A DNA stretch of 6,535 bases from Candidatus Fermentibacterota bacterium (GTDB lineage: Bacteria > JAFGKV01), in NCBI GenBank assembly GCA_030620115.1, contig JAUXFG010000193.1, positions 1-6,535 of the forward strand. The letters run 5' to 3'. Shown one piece after another: positions 1,102-6,475 of this stretch (positions within the stretch are counted from its first letter, which is position 1; each line of letters starts with the position of its first letter). A model generated the notes under the pieces. The model was not told the DNA's origin, ran no database searches, and saw only the letters and a program-made list of their open reading frames with translations. The position numbers and the translations under genes are program-made.

Positions 1102-1560
1102 TCAATCCTCCTGAATGGCCTTCATTGCATCCTCCAGGCGATCCTGCCGAATCACGCAGGTGATCCCCCAAAGCGATGAGCTGATCATCTCGATATTGAT
1201 TCCCGCCTTGGCCAATGCGACAAACATCTGTTTCGGTGTCACTTTCGGGCCGGCCTCCGAGGCTCTGATGGAAATCGTTCCCACCTCACGATCGACCTTG
1301 ATATCCTCGCCGCCCAACTTCCGCACTAATTCCTTCATTGCTTCCTTCACCACGGGGATCGTGCTTTCGGCAACCACGAATGCCACATCGGCCAGACCTG
1401 GCTCCACGGAAGTATTGACCACGAGTTCCACTTCGACATTGCGCGCTCCCAGAGCACCAAATATATCCGCAGCAATGCCCGGCTTGTCCGGCACTTTGAC
1501 CAAGGTCACCTTTGCCACCTTGGTGTTGAAGAATAAACCTTGGCTTGCCTGAGGTCCCAT
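1102..1560 (-). CDS. stand-alone tandem ACT-domain protein resembling the aspartokinase regulatory region
   Basis: This 152-residue protein consists almost entirely of two ACT domains, the small-molecule (usually amino-acid) binding module. ACT1 spans about 15-80 and includes [18 protein letters not shown]2 spans about 92-152 and includes [20 protein letters not shown], which matches the effector-site strand-helix of the second aspartokinase ACT domain (typically GINI-x-MISTSE). There is no kinase domain and no sign of one upstream, so it is not a complete aspartokinase. It resembles the separately made aspartokinase beta subunit, or is a free-standing amino-acid sensor. ATG 1560 was chosen because AGAGGAGG (1574..1567) sits six bases upstream; the frame is open to 1638, but that extension is basic and unlike ACT proteins. 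It is first of a minus-strand cluster with the L,D-transpeptidase and tsaE. Ligand and partner cannot be read from sequence. Lysine or threonine sensing is possible by family resemblance only. Confidence 0.88.
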
Positions 1561-1831
1561 CCCTCGCCTCCTCTGTGTTCGACCACGAAGGGTATGCTCT
1601 CTAATTCGACACAAAGGTGCGTCAGAGAGCTTCTGCAAGCAAGTGAAAAGAGAGCATCATGGTAACCTCACGGGTTCAGAGGTTCACCAATAATCCAAAT
1701 CCCGCCCCGGCAGGAATCTGTTGGCCTTGCATGGAGAAGGCAGGAGAGCAGAAGGACTCGTTGGGGTGGCAAACATGGAATCTGTTCGTCTTCTTCGGCA
1801 CATAAGAGCGGTTTCACACCGATTCTCCTCG
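1561..1831. other. intergenic region between vapC and the ACT gene; weak inverted repeats only
   Basis: About 270 bases lie between the vapC stop and the ACT start. I see no gene: open frames across it are short, lack ribosome binding sites and run into the neighbours. A perfect 9-bp inverted repeat, ATGCTCTCT (1594-1602) and AGAGAGCAT (1649-1657), brackets another AGAGAGC at 1624-1630. A second inverted repeat, AACCTC (1664-1669) and GAGGTT (1679-1684), has a nine-base loop but no following U run, so it is not a convincing terminator for vapC. GGAATCTGTT occurs twice (1713-1722 and 1777-1786). The promoter of the ACT/L,D-transpeptidase/tsaE cluster should lie here, but I could not pick a good -35/-10 pair. 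Confidence 0.5.
1567..1574 (-). promoter_or_regulatory. ribosome binding site of the ACT-domain gene
   Basis: AGAGGAGG on the minus strand, six bases before ATG 1560. It is the strongest Shine-Dalgarno in the cluster and fixes the start inside a longer open frame. Confidence 0.75.
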
Positions 1832-2239
1832 TCATGCCTCTTCTTTGAGGAGCTCGAACCACTCGGACTTCGACGCCTTCTTATCAAATGTGATAATGCA
1901 TTCACAGCCTGACAGTTTCGCAGAATGCCCGATGAGAATGTCAGTAAGGTCCATATTGGTTCCTCGTGCAGAAGAGACAAAGCCCTGAATAGTCGCCAGT
2001 GTCTCGAATTCAAGAATCGGCATCAGTACAAGATCTTCTAGGGAATCCAGTATCTCCTTTCTGGGAATTTCATAAACAGACTCCAGAACCCAGACTGTCT
2101 CGAGGACTACAAGCAAGGGCACGAGCAGGACTTCCTTGTCGGCTTCGGCCTTCTTGAATCTTTTGTAGACGGACTCTGCCTGCTGCTCGTCGTCTCTCAC
2201 CAGAAAGCGAACCAGGATATTCGTGTCAATGGCTTTCAT
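1832..2239 (-). CDS. vapC: PIN-domain ribonuclease toxin of the VapC type
   Basis: VapC toxins are PIN-fold, Mg2+-dependent endoribonucleases that cleave specific RNAs, often initiator tRNA or rRNA, and stop translation when the antitoxin is lost. This 135-residue protein fills the usual family length and keeps the four-acid active site: Asp5 in AIDTNILVRFL, Glu47 in VLETVWVLE, Asp100 in DLTDILIG and Asp119 in IITFDKKA. It therefore appears intact. Its ATG overlaps the antitoxin stop in an ATGA junction (2236-2239), the standard arrangement for coupled translation with antitoxin first. It has no ribosome binding site of its own beyond what lies in the antitoxin coding region. Transcription should come from the promoter at 2523-2551. 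The PIN assignment is firm. The RNA target is unknown, and the pair could act as a stress module or simply as a selfish addiction module. Confidence 0.93.
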   Translation of the reverse strand: MKAIDTNILVRFLVRDDEQQAESVYKRFKKAEADKEVLLVPLLVVLETVWVLESVYEIPRKEILDSLEDLVLMPILEFETLATIQGFVSSARGTNMDLTDILIGHSAKLSGCECIITFDKKASKSEWFELLKEEA

Positions 2240-2484
2240 CTGAACGTTGCCTGCATCTTCTGCTTTATCATCGAGTCGATCTTTTCCACGGAAATTGGCT
2301 TTCTTCCAGGCTTGTGGAGCCTGCCGAAAACATCATCGACCCTCTTCGTGACAGGCATGAGGAACGCATTCCCGTCTTCTGTGATGACAAATTCAACCTT
2401 ATCTCCAGTGTGCAGGTGTAGGGAATCCCGCACAACTTTGGGTATCGTAATCTGTCCTTTGCTTGTGAGTGTTGCGAGAGCCAT
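2236..2484 (-). CDS. vapB: AbrB/MazE-fold antitoxin of the VapB type
   Basis: The 82-residue antitoxin has an N-terminal SpoVT/AbrB swapped-hairpin DNA-binding domain at about 3-47: LTSKGQITIPKVVRDSL followed by the HTGDKVEFVI strand. Its C-terminal tail (about 50-82, GRLHKPGRKPISVEKIDSMI) is the part that normally wraps around the PIN toxin and blocks its active site. ATG 2484 is supported by TAAGGAGG (2500..2493) eight bases upstream. The gene overlaps vapC by four bases. A perfect inverted repeat over the -10 box upstream (2514-2531) is the expected binding site of this protein, alone or with VapC, giving autorepression. AbrB-type antitoxins pair with either VapC or MazF toxins; the PIN partner here makes the VapB label appropriate. 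Confidence 0.92.
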   Translation of the reverse strand: MALATLTSKGQITIPKVVRDSLHLHTGDKVEFVITEDGNAFLMPVTKRVDDVFGRLHKPGRKPISVEKIDSMIKQKMQATFR

Positions 2485-2555: not shown

Positions 2556-2686
2556 CTTAGCCCGCTTTTCTCACCGGGTTTCCTCGCGAAGCAGCGAAGG
2601 TGGTTGCGGCTGTCCCGCAGGCGTATCCTCTGTCCCGCGGCCGACGCGGGATCACAGCAAGACACTGGTGAGAAGTCCGGGCTAGG
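2556..2686. repeat. structured intergenic element with imperfect terminal inverted repeats
   Basis: The left arm 2559-2575 (AGCCCGCTTTTCTCACC) and right arm 2667-2683 (GGTGAGAAGTCCGGGCT) pair at 14 of 17 positions, with further pairing just outside. Between them are two copies of CTGTCCCGC (2610-2618 and 2630-2638) and a perfect hairpin, TCCCGCG (2633-2639) with CGCGGGA (2645-2651) around a five-base loop. It fills almost all the space between the CotH gene stop and the vapBC -35 box. No open frame of note lies in it. It looks like a small non-autonomous repeat, of the MITE or REP/BIME kind, or a large folded 3' end for the CotH transcript. Only one copy is present in this window, so dispersal is an inference. 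Confidence 0.55.
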
Positions 2687-2695
2687 ATGACAGAT

Positions 2696-5600
2696 TCATT
2701 TGAGGACTACCAGCCTGGTGTACTGTGTGCCGATCTCGCCGTGAGCACTTATGAGGTAGCTGCCGCTGGGGAGCGATGGGGAAATGGGCAGTTGATGCCA
2801 GCCTGCATCGAGATCGCCTTCCCAGACATGCTCGCACGCCCGGCCATGGAGATCGTAGATCACCAGCTCTCCGTAGCCGCCCTGGGGAAGTCCCAAGGTC
2901 ACCGTACATCGACCTGCGGTTGGGTTCGGGGTCACATCGCCCAATGTGAGGCACATGGGCAAAGTTGGTGAACCAGAATTCTCGCTTCCCAGGCCAGAGT
3001 TGTGGCCGCCCGGGGTCGGAGCTTGCGTCGCGCCCCACGGACCCGTTCCATCCGGGTATCGACCCCACGACTGATCCTCGTTCTGGGGGCCGAAGCTGAT
3101 CGTATCCAGCGGGACAATGTCCGAGGGGATGCGAAAGAATAGACCCAGCTCCTCTCCGTCCGCCGAGAGCTTGAACGACGCATGGGTCGGCCCCTGTTCC
3201 TCGTCATCGTCCGCCCACACCAGGAAGAAGCCGCCGGGCTCTATGGTCGTATCCGGAAACGCCCATTTCATCGGCTCCGCAAGGTCGTCGGTGAGATACA
3301 TGTGTGTGAGGGGCACCGGTACCGGCCCCATATTGTGGAGCTCGATCCAATCGTCATACTCGCCAAGCTCATCGGCAAGCGTGGTGGTATTGCTCGCCAT
3401 GAATTCATTGAGCACCACAGGGGGAGGCTGCCAGCCAACTAGGTACACGAACGATTGGGTAAAGGTCGGCTCCATGCCCATATTCCCCGCCGCATCCGTG
3501 GCCACCACGACATATTTGACCCGTGTCCCGCCGGGCTGCCCCGGAATCGTCGTGGCAAAGATCCCATCATGGGCAGCATGATCCCCATGATGGCCATCGT
3601 CATGCATGGGGATGGGCGCAAACCCCGGCCCCACATCAACGAACAGGTCAACCAGGAAATCATCGCCTTCAGGATCAATCGCGCGGGCCGTGATCAAGAC
3701 TGGCTCATAGGGGCGGGGCCACTGGGGATCGCGCTCCACACCCGAGATCTCCGGAGCGCTCCCTCCTGGTGTGCCATTTGATGCTCCCGGAGAGGGAGAG
3801 GGCAGGAATGTCAAGGAGGAGCTCGCATCGGGATACCTGCCGAATGACCGGTCGTCGGCTGCCAACGGAATGGTCATGCTATCCTGGTACGCGCCGCTGG
3901 TGATTCGAAGAGCCACCTGGGCCTCCTCTGCTCCTAACGCCCAGGTGCTATGCATGGCTCCCTGTGATGGTTCACCATCGAGCCACACAAGGACAAAACC
4001 TCCGGGAGAGATGCTCGTGTCGGGAATAGTCCACTCCTCACCGCCGCTCCCAAGCGTCCACCCACTGATATCCACTGGCCCTGGGCTGTTATTGTAGAGC
4101 TCCATCCACGGATCGAATTCACCGTATTCGTCTGCGATAGTGGTATCATTCCTGGCTTGCACTTCGTTGATGAATACAAACAACGATTCCTCCGGTGCAT
4201 ACGCGGAGATCTCGCCCAAGAGAAAAACACACCTCTGCACGACGAACTCCTTCAGTTCCGCGTCGGAACCTTCGAAGAGTGCATTGTCCTCTCTGCCGAG
4301 CTTCATGATATCCAGCCGCGCATCGTGTGCGATAGCCCCGTGGAGCGAGTCGATTTGGCATTCCATGGGCTCCGGTGAGAACTCGTTCTCGAGAAGTCGC
4401 GACAGCTCATCGCAGTAGAAGCGACGAAATGCTGGAATCTGGAGAATCTTGTCCAGGAGCACATTGGGCCCGCCGATGCACTGCGGACTCTGTGAACTGC
4501 CAAGATCGATGGGGCTGTCGAACTCCATATCCGGATCAAATGCGCCGCTGATACCGAATGTGTGGTCCATATCCCACGGGACGACTTCCCACATGTCATC
4601 CTCGAGATCATGGATCAGGTAGTAGTTATGGGTAGTGAAATCAACATTGGACGTTGCCACGATGACGGCGTAGTACTTGAGGTATGAGGCAACATCGAGG
4701 ATCTGCAGGAGCGCCGGGCCCAGGGCGTCAGCCGAGGTCAGATTGATCGTTTCGATGAACTCCATGAGATCATCGTAGCCAAGATCTTCGTTGGTTTCTT
4801 TCTCATAGTGGCGCCTGTAATCATCCTCTGATGGCAACAGATCGAGCGCTCCAAAGCACTTGTAGATGCTGGCGCCGGGATCACGCCCTGTTCGCACGAG
4901 GAATCGTTCATCGAGCTGCTCCAGATGGAGATACACGCCGGCGAACTCCTCGTTCAGGTGGAAATGTGAATGCCGCGCCCAAGGAGGCCGGATACCCGTA
5001 AGATCAAAAAGATCATAGCAGAGCTTGCTGCGGATAAGAGACCAATCCACAAAATCGGCGTTGCAGTTAACCCGATCTACGCCTTGAAAGGTATCGCCGT
5101 CATCCAAGCGGATCTTATACGATTTCTTGCTCATGAATCGCGAAATATTCCCCCGGTATCGCATCCCCACCGGCGAATACAGTGTATCCTCTCCCCAAAA
5201 CACGGCGTCCACGTACTCATCGGTCTGAGGATCAGCCTGGAGTGTGGCCAATGCTTCAGGATCCACCTCGATCCGATACACAGGCAAGGGCGAGTCCTCC
5301 AAGCGGAGAGCCGTCACCTCCTCCCATGGGGTAGCATTACTCTCATTGCCGAATACATCAACGCTGGTCACTGCGTAGGATGCCGTGCCGCCTGGCGCCA
5401 GGCCGTAATCAAGGAATAGGGGGAGTGGAACGGGCCGCTCGGTCAGGCACGTTTCGGGCTCCAGTGCCGACGTACGGTAGACCAGAACGCCGGCGAAATC
5501 AGCCTCCTGGGGGAAATGCCAGGTGAGCAAACCGACGCCGTAGCTTCCCCGGGCAACAAAGACGGATGGCGCCGCCGGGGCCGACGAATCCGGCTCCCAT

Positions 5601-6100
5601 GATACAATCTCGATGCCTTCCAGCAGGTTGTCTCCGACGAGAGGTAGGACTTGGACATTCAGATGACCATCGGTGGTAGCCACCGGAAACCGGAGTCTCA
5701 ATGCGTATCCATGATTCGCCACATCAAACACATCCAGTGAATCGAGGAGCGCCATATCCTCAGCGTGGATGCTGAGTACACGCAGATCGGGACCATGTCG
5801 TTCGATCTCCGCGAAATGGAGCGTGAGCACATAATCACCTGGAGGAACATCCGCCACGAACTCATCGAACTGGCAACGCCAGGATTCATAGAGCATAGGC
5901 ATGTCGGTACCGCCGATAGGATAATGATTGTGCGGTACTATTCTTCCCCCTATAAAACCCGCCTGACCCGGGGTATACGCCGCGTCGCCGACAAACGAAA
6001 CGCCATCCGGTGAGACGAACGCGCCCCCACCGCAGTTCATGTGAAGCTCGTAGGCCTGCGTGGCAGAAACCAACGCCAAGAGATAGATCAGCGATCGCAT
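2696..6100 (-). CDS. secreted multi-domain CotH kinase-like protein (malectin, FN3-like, CotH, two lamin-tail domains, C-terminal sorting domain)
   Basis: From ATG 6100 the protein has 1134 residues. Order: signal peptide 1-16 (core LIYLLALVSA, cleavage after TQA); malectin-like glycan-binding domain about 18-168; FN3-like domain about 176-260; CotH domain about 271-633; lamin-tail domain (LTD) 1 about 641-770; Ig-like domain about 781-888 with the DDGHHGDHAAHDGIF turn; LTD 2 about 894-1030; and a C-terminal beta domain about 1046-1134 (DVTPNPTAGRCTVTL, ending YTRLVVLK) like type IX/Por sorting or FlgD-Ig domains. The CotH part keeps RYRGN, KKSYKIRL, the NEEFAGVYLHLEQLD strand and VVPWDMDHTFG, the conserved W-D-x-D region. 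Bacillus CotH is an atypical kinase that phosphorylates spore-coat proteins; activity here is inferred. GGAGG touches the first possible ATG (6106) but lies six bases from 6100, so 6100 is preferred. The gene is flanked by repeats and appears monocistronic. Likely surface-attached or released; substrate unknown. Confidence 0.9.
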   Translation of the reverse strand: MRSLIYLLALVSATQAYELHMNCGGGAFVSPDGVSFVGDAAYTPGQAGFIGGRIVPHNHYPIGGTDMPMLYESWRCQFDEFVADVPPGDYVLTLHFAEIERHGPDLRVLSIHAEDMALLDSLDVFDVANHGYALRLRFPVATTDGHLNVQVLPLVGDNLLEGIEIVSWEPDSSAPAAPSVFVARGSYGVGLLTWHFPQEADFAGVLVYRTSALEPETCLTERPVPLPLFLDYGLAPGGTASYAVTSVDVFGNESNATPWEEVTALRLEDSPLPVYRIEVDPEALATLQADPQTDEYVDAVFWGEDTLYSPVGMRYRGNISRFMSKKSYKIRLDDGDTFQGVDRVNCNADFVDWSLIRSKLCYDLFDLTGIRPPWARHSHFHLNEEFAGVYLHLEQLDERFLVRTGRDPGASIYKCFGALDLLPSEDDYRRHYEKETNEDLGYDDLMEFIETINLTSADALGPALLQILDVASYLKYYAVIVATSNVDFTTHNYYLIHDLEDDMWEVVPWDMDHTFGISGAFDPDMEFDSPIDLGSSQSPQCIGGPNVLLDKILQIPAFRRFYCDELSRLLENEFSPEPMECQIDSLHGAIAHDARLDIMKLGREDNALFEGSDAELKEFVVQRCVFLLGEISAYAPEESLFVFINEVQARNDTTIADEYGEFDPWMELYNNSPGPVDISGWTLGSGGEEWTIPDTSISPGGFVLVWLDGEPSQGAMHSTWALGAEEAQVALRITSGAYQDSMTIPLAADDRSFGRYPDASSSLTFLPSPSPGASNGTPGGSAPEISGVERDPQWPRPYEPVLITARAIDPEGDDFLVDLFVDVGPGFAPIPMHDDGHHGDHAAHDGIFATTIPGQPGGTRVKYVVVATDAAGNMGMEPTFTQSFVYLVGWQPPPVVLNEFMASNTTTLADELGEYDDWIELHNMGPVPVPLTHMYLTDDLAEPMKWAFPDTTIEPGGFFLVWADDDEEQGPTHASFKLSADGEELGLFFRIPSDIVPLDTISFGPQNEDQSWGRYPDGTGPWGATQAPTPGGHNSGLGSENSGSPTLPMCLTLGDVTPNPTAGRCTVTLGLPQGGYGELVIYDLHGRACEHVWEGDLDAGWHQLPISPSLPSGSYLISAHGEIGTQYTRLVVLK

Positions 6101-6106
6101 GCGCAT

Positions 6107-6114
6107 CCTCCTAA
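6107..6114 (-). promoter_or_regulatory. ribosome binding site that decides the CotH-protein start
   Basis: TTAGGAGG on the minus strand ends directly against ATG 6106 but six bases before ATG 6100. Normal spacing therefore favours 6100, which removes only Met-Arg from the signal peptide. Confidence 0.7.
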
Positions 6115-6180: not shown

Positions 6181-6227
6181 GATACAAGATTCCGCAGAGA
6201 AATCCCGGAACCGTGGTGCCACCCTCA

Positions 6228-6301
6228 GTCATTGCGAGGAGTACTGCGACGAAGCAATCTCATCCGCTCATCGAGATCGCCGCGCTGTCGCTCGCGATGA
6301 C
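6228..6301. repeat. palindromic dispersed repeat (GTCATTGCGAGGAG type), complete copy
   Basis: The element runs from GTCATTGCGAGGAG to the near-complementary end CTCGCGATGAC. Its inner parts GCAATCTC (6254-6261) and GAGATCGC (6273-6280) also pair with one mismatch, so the whole can fold into one long imperfect hairpin. Elements beginning GTCATTGCGAGGAG and containing GAAGCAATCTC are a familiar class of intergenic palindromic repeat in many bacterial genomes. That identification is from memory of the motif. It carries no gene. Confidence 0.75.
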
Positions 6302-6310
6302 CAGCTCCAT

Positions 6311-6329
6311 CCTCAGTCATTGCGAGGAG
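6311..6329 (+). repeat. partial second copy of the palindromic repeat
   Basis: CCTCAGTCATTGCGAGGAG at 6311-6329 repeats 6223-6241 exactly over 19 bases, in the same orientation and 88 bases away. After it the sequence departs from the complete copy, so only the first part of a unit is present. It may be the broken end of a tandem array. Confidence 0.75.
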
Positions 6330-6475
6330 GGTTCCGATAGTGTAAAGTACTTCCCGGCCTATCCTGAAACATCTGCATTCTCTCTCATACCGCACAGTTT
6401 GACCATCAAAGGTACCAATTGGTTTAACTGGGGTATCTACTTGACTCCAGTAGCCCCAATATGTAGTGTTCCGAC
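6330..6475. other. non-coding stretch holding the probable left end of an insertion sequence
   Basis: No gene is visible. It contains a perfect 10-bp palindrome ACCAATTGGT (6414-6423) and a bulged hairpin made of TGGGG (6429-6433), CTACT (6437-6441), AGTAG (6449-6453) and CCCCA (6454-6458). Since a transposase starts at 6476, the left terminal inverted repeat of the element should be in or near this hairpin, but the other end is outside the window so the boundary cannot be placed. TTGACT (6441-6446) and TAGTGT (6464-6469), 17 bases apart, are a weak plus-strand promoter candidate that would start transcription almost at the ATG. Confidence 0.4.

Follow-up and report, generated by a model that had tools for sequence, protein, structure and literature searches.

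A predicted exported CotH-type kinase combining malectin, lamin-tail and type IX sorting domains in a Candidatus Fermentibacterota bacterium

What might a kinase of the CotH type, which in Bacillus acts in sporulating cells, be doing in a bacterium that does not appear to form spores, and within a protein that seems to be destined for export? The question is raised by a gene on the reverse strand of the window, by which we mean the whole stretch of 6,535 nucleotides analyzed here (positions 1 to 6,535 of contig JAUXFG010000193.1, assembly GCA_030620115.1, Candidatus Fermentibacterota bacterium). On sequence and modeling grounds, we consider it probable that the gene specifies a multidomain protein of the CotH family that is exported, is delivered by a type IX secretion system (T9SS), is most likely active as a kinase and is positioned by its accessory domains.

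The gene and its CotH domain

The gene and the domains of its product are laid out as follows.

2696..6106, reverse strand: coding sequence; the longest frame, from 6106, has 1136 residues, and the likeliest start, at 6100, gives 1134
6107..6112, reverse strand: Shine-Dalgarno sequence AGGAGG, 6 nucleotides ahead of the ATG at 6100, as read from the sequence
6053..6106, reverse strand: N-terminal export signal MRMRSLIYLLALVSATQA, residues 1-18, read by eye
5648..6046, reverse strand: malectin domain, residues 21-153 (Pfam PF11721, E 3.3e-13)
5303..5596, reverse strand: putative Fn3-like linker domain, residues 171-268, a module recurring elsewhere, of low certainty
4187..5299, reverse strand: CotH kinase domain, residues 270-640, with Pfam core 316-628 (PF08757, E 1.6e-59)
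3767..4186, reverse strand: lamin-tail domain 1 (LTD1), residues 641-780, with Pfam stretch 644-739 (PF00932)
3425..3766, reverse strand: choice-of-anchor X region, residues 781-894, with the match at 832-861 (NF041940)
2987..3424, reverse strand: lamin-tail domain 2 (LTD2), residues 895-1040, the second PF00932 stretch
2705..2935, reverse strand: predicted C-terminal sorting domain of T9SS type A, residues 1058-1134 (TIGR04183)

The start at 6100 is preferred over that at 6106 because of the spacing of AGGAGG, which directly touches the alternative ATG at 6106, and because one orthologue (G001) has its start codon at the position matching 6100. A chance open reading frame was ruled out by the full-length orthologues of the same layout found in a search of 40 related genomes, at 51% (G001) and 49% (G002) identity, these two genomes being the sole others of the same bacterial family in the set searched. 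The malectin, CotH and two lamin-tail domains that an earlier note, made from the letters alone, had assigned to this protein all score above their Pfam cut-offs (50.4 bits versus 23 for Malectin, 202.5 versus 23.8 for CotH and 72.3 versus 34.3 for the two LTD stretches), and LTD2 is 41% identical to LTD1 across 140 columns. Two further segments had been overlooked in that first reading: the choice-of-anchor X match (NCBIfam NF041940, 30 bits versus a cut-off of 25) and the Fn3-like stretch, which has no match in a Pfam scan and is recognized through matches to residues 168-272 in unrelated proteins of four other genomes (G031, G008, G036 and G039).

The assignment of the central domain draws on several comparisons. 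Among solved sequences CotH is its sole match (B. cereus 5jd9, E 6.5e-35), a 32-member CotH profile finds it at E 2.9e-78, and its identity to Bacillus CotH is about 28% over the domain. An AlphaFold model of residues 265-645, built from four sequences (mean pLDDT 57.5, pTM 0.62), matches 5jda/5jd9 in Foldseek (E 4e-17, TM 0.67) and in VIA (Z 22.4 over 338 residues, the next family having Z below 8), so that the CotH assignment proposed earlier is supported by this match to the B. cereus protein. A full-length model built from three sequences (pLDDT 30, pTM 0.22) was discarded.

The RYRGN, KKSYKIRL (residues 327-334) and VVPWDMDHTFG motifs, described previously as seemingly intact, are all found in the protein, and the most conserved positions across 37 CotH domain rows include G319, K328, G390, E396, D489 and D512. 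The main pocket residues map as follows.

5123..5128, reverse strand: Lys327-Lys328 of the KKSYKI motif; K328 occurs in 28 of the 35 CotH rows covering it and is the same in 5jd9
4919..4921, reverse strand: Glu396, a conserved pocket acid (31 of 37 rows)
4640..4642, reverse strand: Asp489 in NVDF, the probable equivalent of B. subtilis Asp228, judged via 5jd9 and by spacing
4565..4573, reverse strand: Asp512-Met-Asp514 (WDMD), with a near-invariant D512 (36 of 37 rows)

All 13 conserved pocket positions examined are identical to those of B. cereus CotH 5jd9. The two full-length orthologues retain them too, but in several other homologues of CotH at least one is missing. The spacing of 23 residues from D489 to D512 equals that of the matching aspartates in B. 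cereus CotH, and in the B. subtilis protein Asp228 likewise lies 23 residues ahead of Asp251. Substitution D228Q abolishes the activity of B. subtilis CotH (PMC7821199). A missing CotH pocket, or close homologues that had lost the catalytic aspartates, would have spoken for a binding protein. Neither is seen: D489, D512 and D514 are invariant among the orthologues, and the kinase reading stands. Given that the CotH fold and the catalytic positions are both kept, ATP- and Mg2+-dependent kinase activity is predicted as most likely, and the CotH domain would be the part of the protein that carries out phosphotransfer. It is also the segment best conserved in the two orthologues (58% and 56%), followed by LTD2 (54% in both) and malectin (53% in both); apart from the signal peptide, the T9SS tail has the lowest identity (39% and 31%).

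Export and destination of the protein

The N-terminus shows by eye the basic start, hydrophobic core and small final residues of a signal peptide, which would carry the protein into the periplasm. From there the C-terminal type A tail would lead to its secretion by the type IX system, either onto the cell surface or out of the cell, as suggested by the tail itself and by the machinery encoded in the source genome, which is 98% complete. SprA scores above its cut-off there when its neighbours are considered in frame (370 bits), six PorV proteins are above cut-off, and type A tails amount to 86 matches at E<=0.01, the window tail included, about 60 of them above cut-off. Since the genome encodes SprA and PorV along with numerous type A tails, export by this route is considered likely. 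Of the earlier suggestion of an export signal combined with a type IX-like end, the signal is apparent, while the tail stays below the cut-off of 23 bits in a protein scan (17 bits) and reaches 22.5 bits in a genome search, just passing the cut-off (23.1 bits) with its neighbours in frame. SprA is also present in 11 of the 12 CotH genomes chosen for this purpose, a sample made up of CotH genomes only, from which no association is claimed. The previous judgment that the host is not a spore former is in agreement with the lack of any match to the Spo0A profile (PF08769) in the source genome.

Several points weigh against an exported, active kinase. The sorting tail scores only at its cut-off; SprA is divergent and divided between two contigs (C28 and C277); and the PorU sortase model yields only matches below cut-off in the genome. 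The confidence of the CotH model is moderate. Finally, the periplasm and the medium are poor in ATP, and B. subtilis CotH operates near cytoplasmic ATP, so that kinase chemistry outside the cell would require a separate supply of ATP there. The proposal in the earlier note that proteins are phosphorylated outside the cell or at its surface meets the same difficulty.

The likely ATP-poor destination also lends some weight to a second interpretation, that of a structural or adhesive surface protein which has kept the CotH fold and whose main job is binding or scaffolding. Binding-type domains make up most of the protein mass beyond CotH, a structural role next to a regulatory one has been proposed for CotH proteins of cellulosomes (PMC12484212), and fungal CotH proteins are receptor ligands (PMC9973265). 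However, invariant catalytic positions in orthologues of about 50% identity, together with a CotH domain that is the best conserved of all, would be unexpected in a pure scaffold, and we regard this interpretation as credible yet clearly the less probable of the two. If the protein is instead an exported kinase, as we favor, its malectin, Fn3-like and lamin-tail domains most likely serve to attach it to, or place it on, the surface or extracellular material.

The malectin domain and possible glycan partners

The earlier note had further proposed that malectin might guide the kinase to glycosylated partners. The domain itself is recognizable (PDB 2jwp, E 1.3e-5; profile E 4e-13) and is the only malectin match in the source genome, as in each of the two genomes that carry the orthologues. 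Diglucose is contacted in animal malectin by Y67, Y89, Y116, F117 and D186 (PMC7783096). In our alignment, with the frog residue numbering set by eye, the aromatic pair Y116/F117 falls on E102/R103, Y67 on Phe38 and Y89 on about Phe51, with D186 lying beyond the aligned region; E102 is invariant in the orthologues. The diglucose contact set of animal malectin is hence not found in the window domain, and the animal-type sugar site has not been retained, since Y116/F117 are replaced by Glu and Arg. The same replacement leaves the case for malectin steering of the kinase weak. On the other hand, the domain resembles the CBM57-type domains of bacterial GH2 glycosidases (8dhl, E 1.7e-10), and it might bind a different glycan.

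Fusion to such a CBM57-type domain would be congruent with a third interpretation, in which CotH phosphorylates a sugar or polysaccharide while malectin holds the glycan, by analogy with the secretory-pathway kinases FAM20B and POMK. Nevertheless, no residue or structural sign of a sugar acceptor site is seen, the sugar site of animal malectin has not been preserved, and the CotH substrates described in the literature consulted are proteins (PMC7821199), which makes a glycan kinase very improbable. The broader proposal of a type IX-secreted kinase that phosphorylates surface glycans or glycoproteins, held in place by its malectin and lamin-tail domains, seems to us unlikely, if slightly less so. 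If true, such a surface glycan or glycoprotein kinase would stand to bacteria, outside the cell, as the Fam20/POMK kinases stand to the secretory pathway, and it would need a source of extracellular ATP.

Genomic context, distribution and comparison with known systems

Both orthologues are followed downstream by zf-HC2-like and DUF4097-like proteins. No substrate gene is conserved among the neighbours. Nor is any partner gene shared by all three loci, because the window carries a VapBC-like pair in place of these genes (1832-2484, reverse strand), in which an AbrB/MazE-type antitoxin (2236-2484) overlaps a PIN-domain toxin (1832-2239). Immediately upstream of the pair, near 2510-2530, the sequence CCTTAC-TTTATG-GTAAGG forms a perfect inverted repeat that could be its operator. 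Further along, a stand-alone protein with two ACT domains (1102-1638, reverse strand) lacks a kinase half but is similar to the regulatory part of aspartate kinase (PRK07431 residues 260-407), and adjoins genes for a YkuD L,D-transpeptidase and TsaE (482-1171 and 1-801, both on the reverse strand). Just downstream of the CotH gene, the region 2560-2680 (reverse strand) has an unusually stable predicted RNA fold (-55.8 kcal/mol, z -2.9) and no Rfam match. An intergenic repeat at 6213-6330 comprises two copies of TCATTGCGAGGAG placed 88 nucleotides apart, the first of them in an imperfect hairpin (z -1.9); the repeat is absent from the other loci checked in the same genome, has no Rfam match and is matched exactly, over a longer stretch, once in a viral contig (L085). 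No relatives of the CotH protein were found among viral contigs.

CotH is present in 23 of the 145 genomes searched and CotH modules occur in cellulosomes (PMC6083626, PMC12484212), so its presence outside spore formers is not surprising. LTD accompanies CotH in 15 of 32 scanned CotH proteins and malectin in four, namely the window protein, its two orthologues and L071, from a genome of another family (G120), the layout of which is malectin-CotH-LTD-LTD. This G120 genome (L071, L074, L077-L083) and G091 have 13-14 CotH genes apiece; at least six of the 14 in G120 carry an N-terminal malectin domain. In the CotH tree, the window domain is closest to the malectin-CotH proteins of G120, with Bacillus CotH next, although branch support is moderate to low. 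The data neither establish nor reject that malectin and CotH were fused only once (p-AU 0.26). The source genome (G000) has three further CotH genes (L002/L040, L003/L041 and L042, on contigs C78, C136 and C184), of which two have LTD and chitobiase-C-like domains and the third is shorter (494 residues), all on another branch of the tree than the window gene.

CotH kinases and most of these domain combinations are already known; our literature search found no paper that links CotH to malectin or to type IX secretion. The contribution of the sequence is thus a domain combination and no new mechanism. Yet CotH kinases are widespread among non-sporulating bacteria, and this protein, with its intact catalytic residues, apparent export signal and probable type IX tail, is well suited to testing whether proteins or glycans are phosphorylated at Gram-negative-type cell surfaces, the conserved domain order lending itself to defined constructs.

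With Bacillus CotH (B. cereus 5jd9/5jda and B. subtilis) the window protein has in common the fold and the pocket positions. The Bacillus protein, however, is a single domain acting on CotB/CotG in sporulating cells, whereas the protein described here is a predicted exported multidomain one from a genome without a Spo0A match, and no CotB/CotG gene adjoins its own. Cthe_0239 and CseP of C. thermocellum are likewise exported CotH proteins; Cthe_0239 has the two lamin-tail domains and the Fn3 module seen here, an LTD-LTD-Fn3-CotH layout being known from the C. thermocellum cellulosome, although both differ in domain order, in docking through dockerin and not through a T9SS tail, and in having no malectin (PMC6083626). 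Two proteins from other genomes (L048 and L073) combine CotH and LTD with a Por_Secre_tail/CHU_C-like end, near or just below Pfam cut-offs, but are devoid of malectin, L073 having a CHB_HEX_C domain instead. Lastly, the G120 malectin-CotH proteins belong to another bacterial family and have many paralogues, and L071 has no type IX tail by Pfam; nonetheless six of them (L071, L074, L077, L079, L080 and L082) present the same N-terminal malectin combined with CotH as the window protein.
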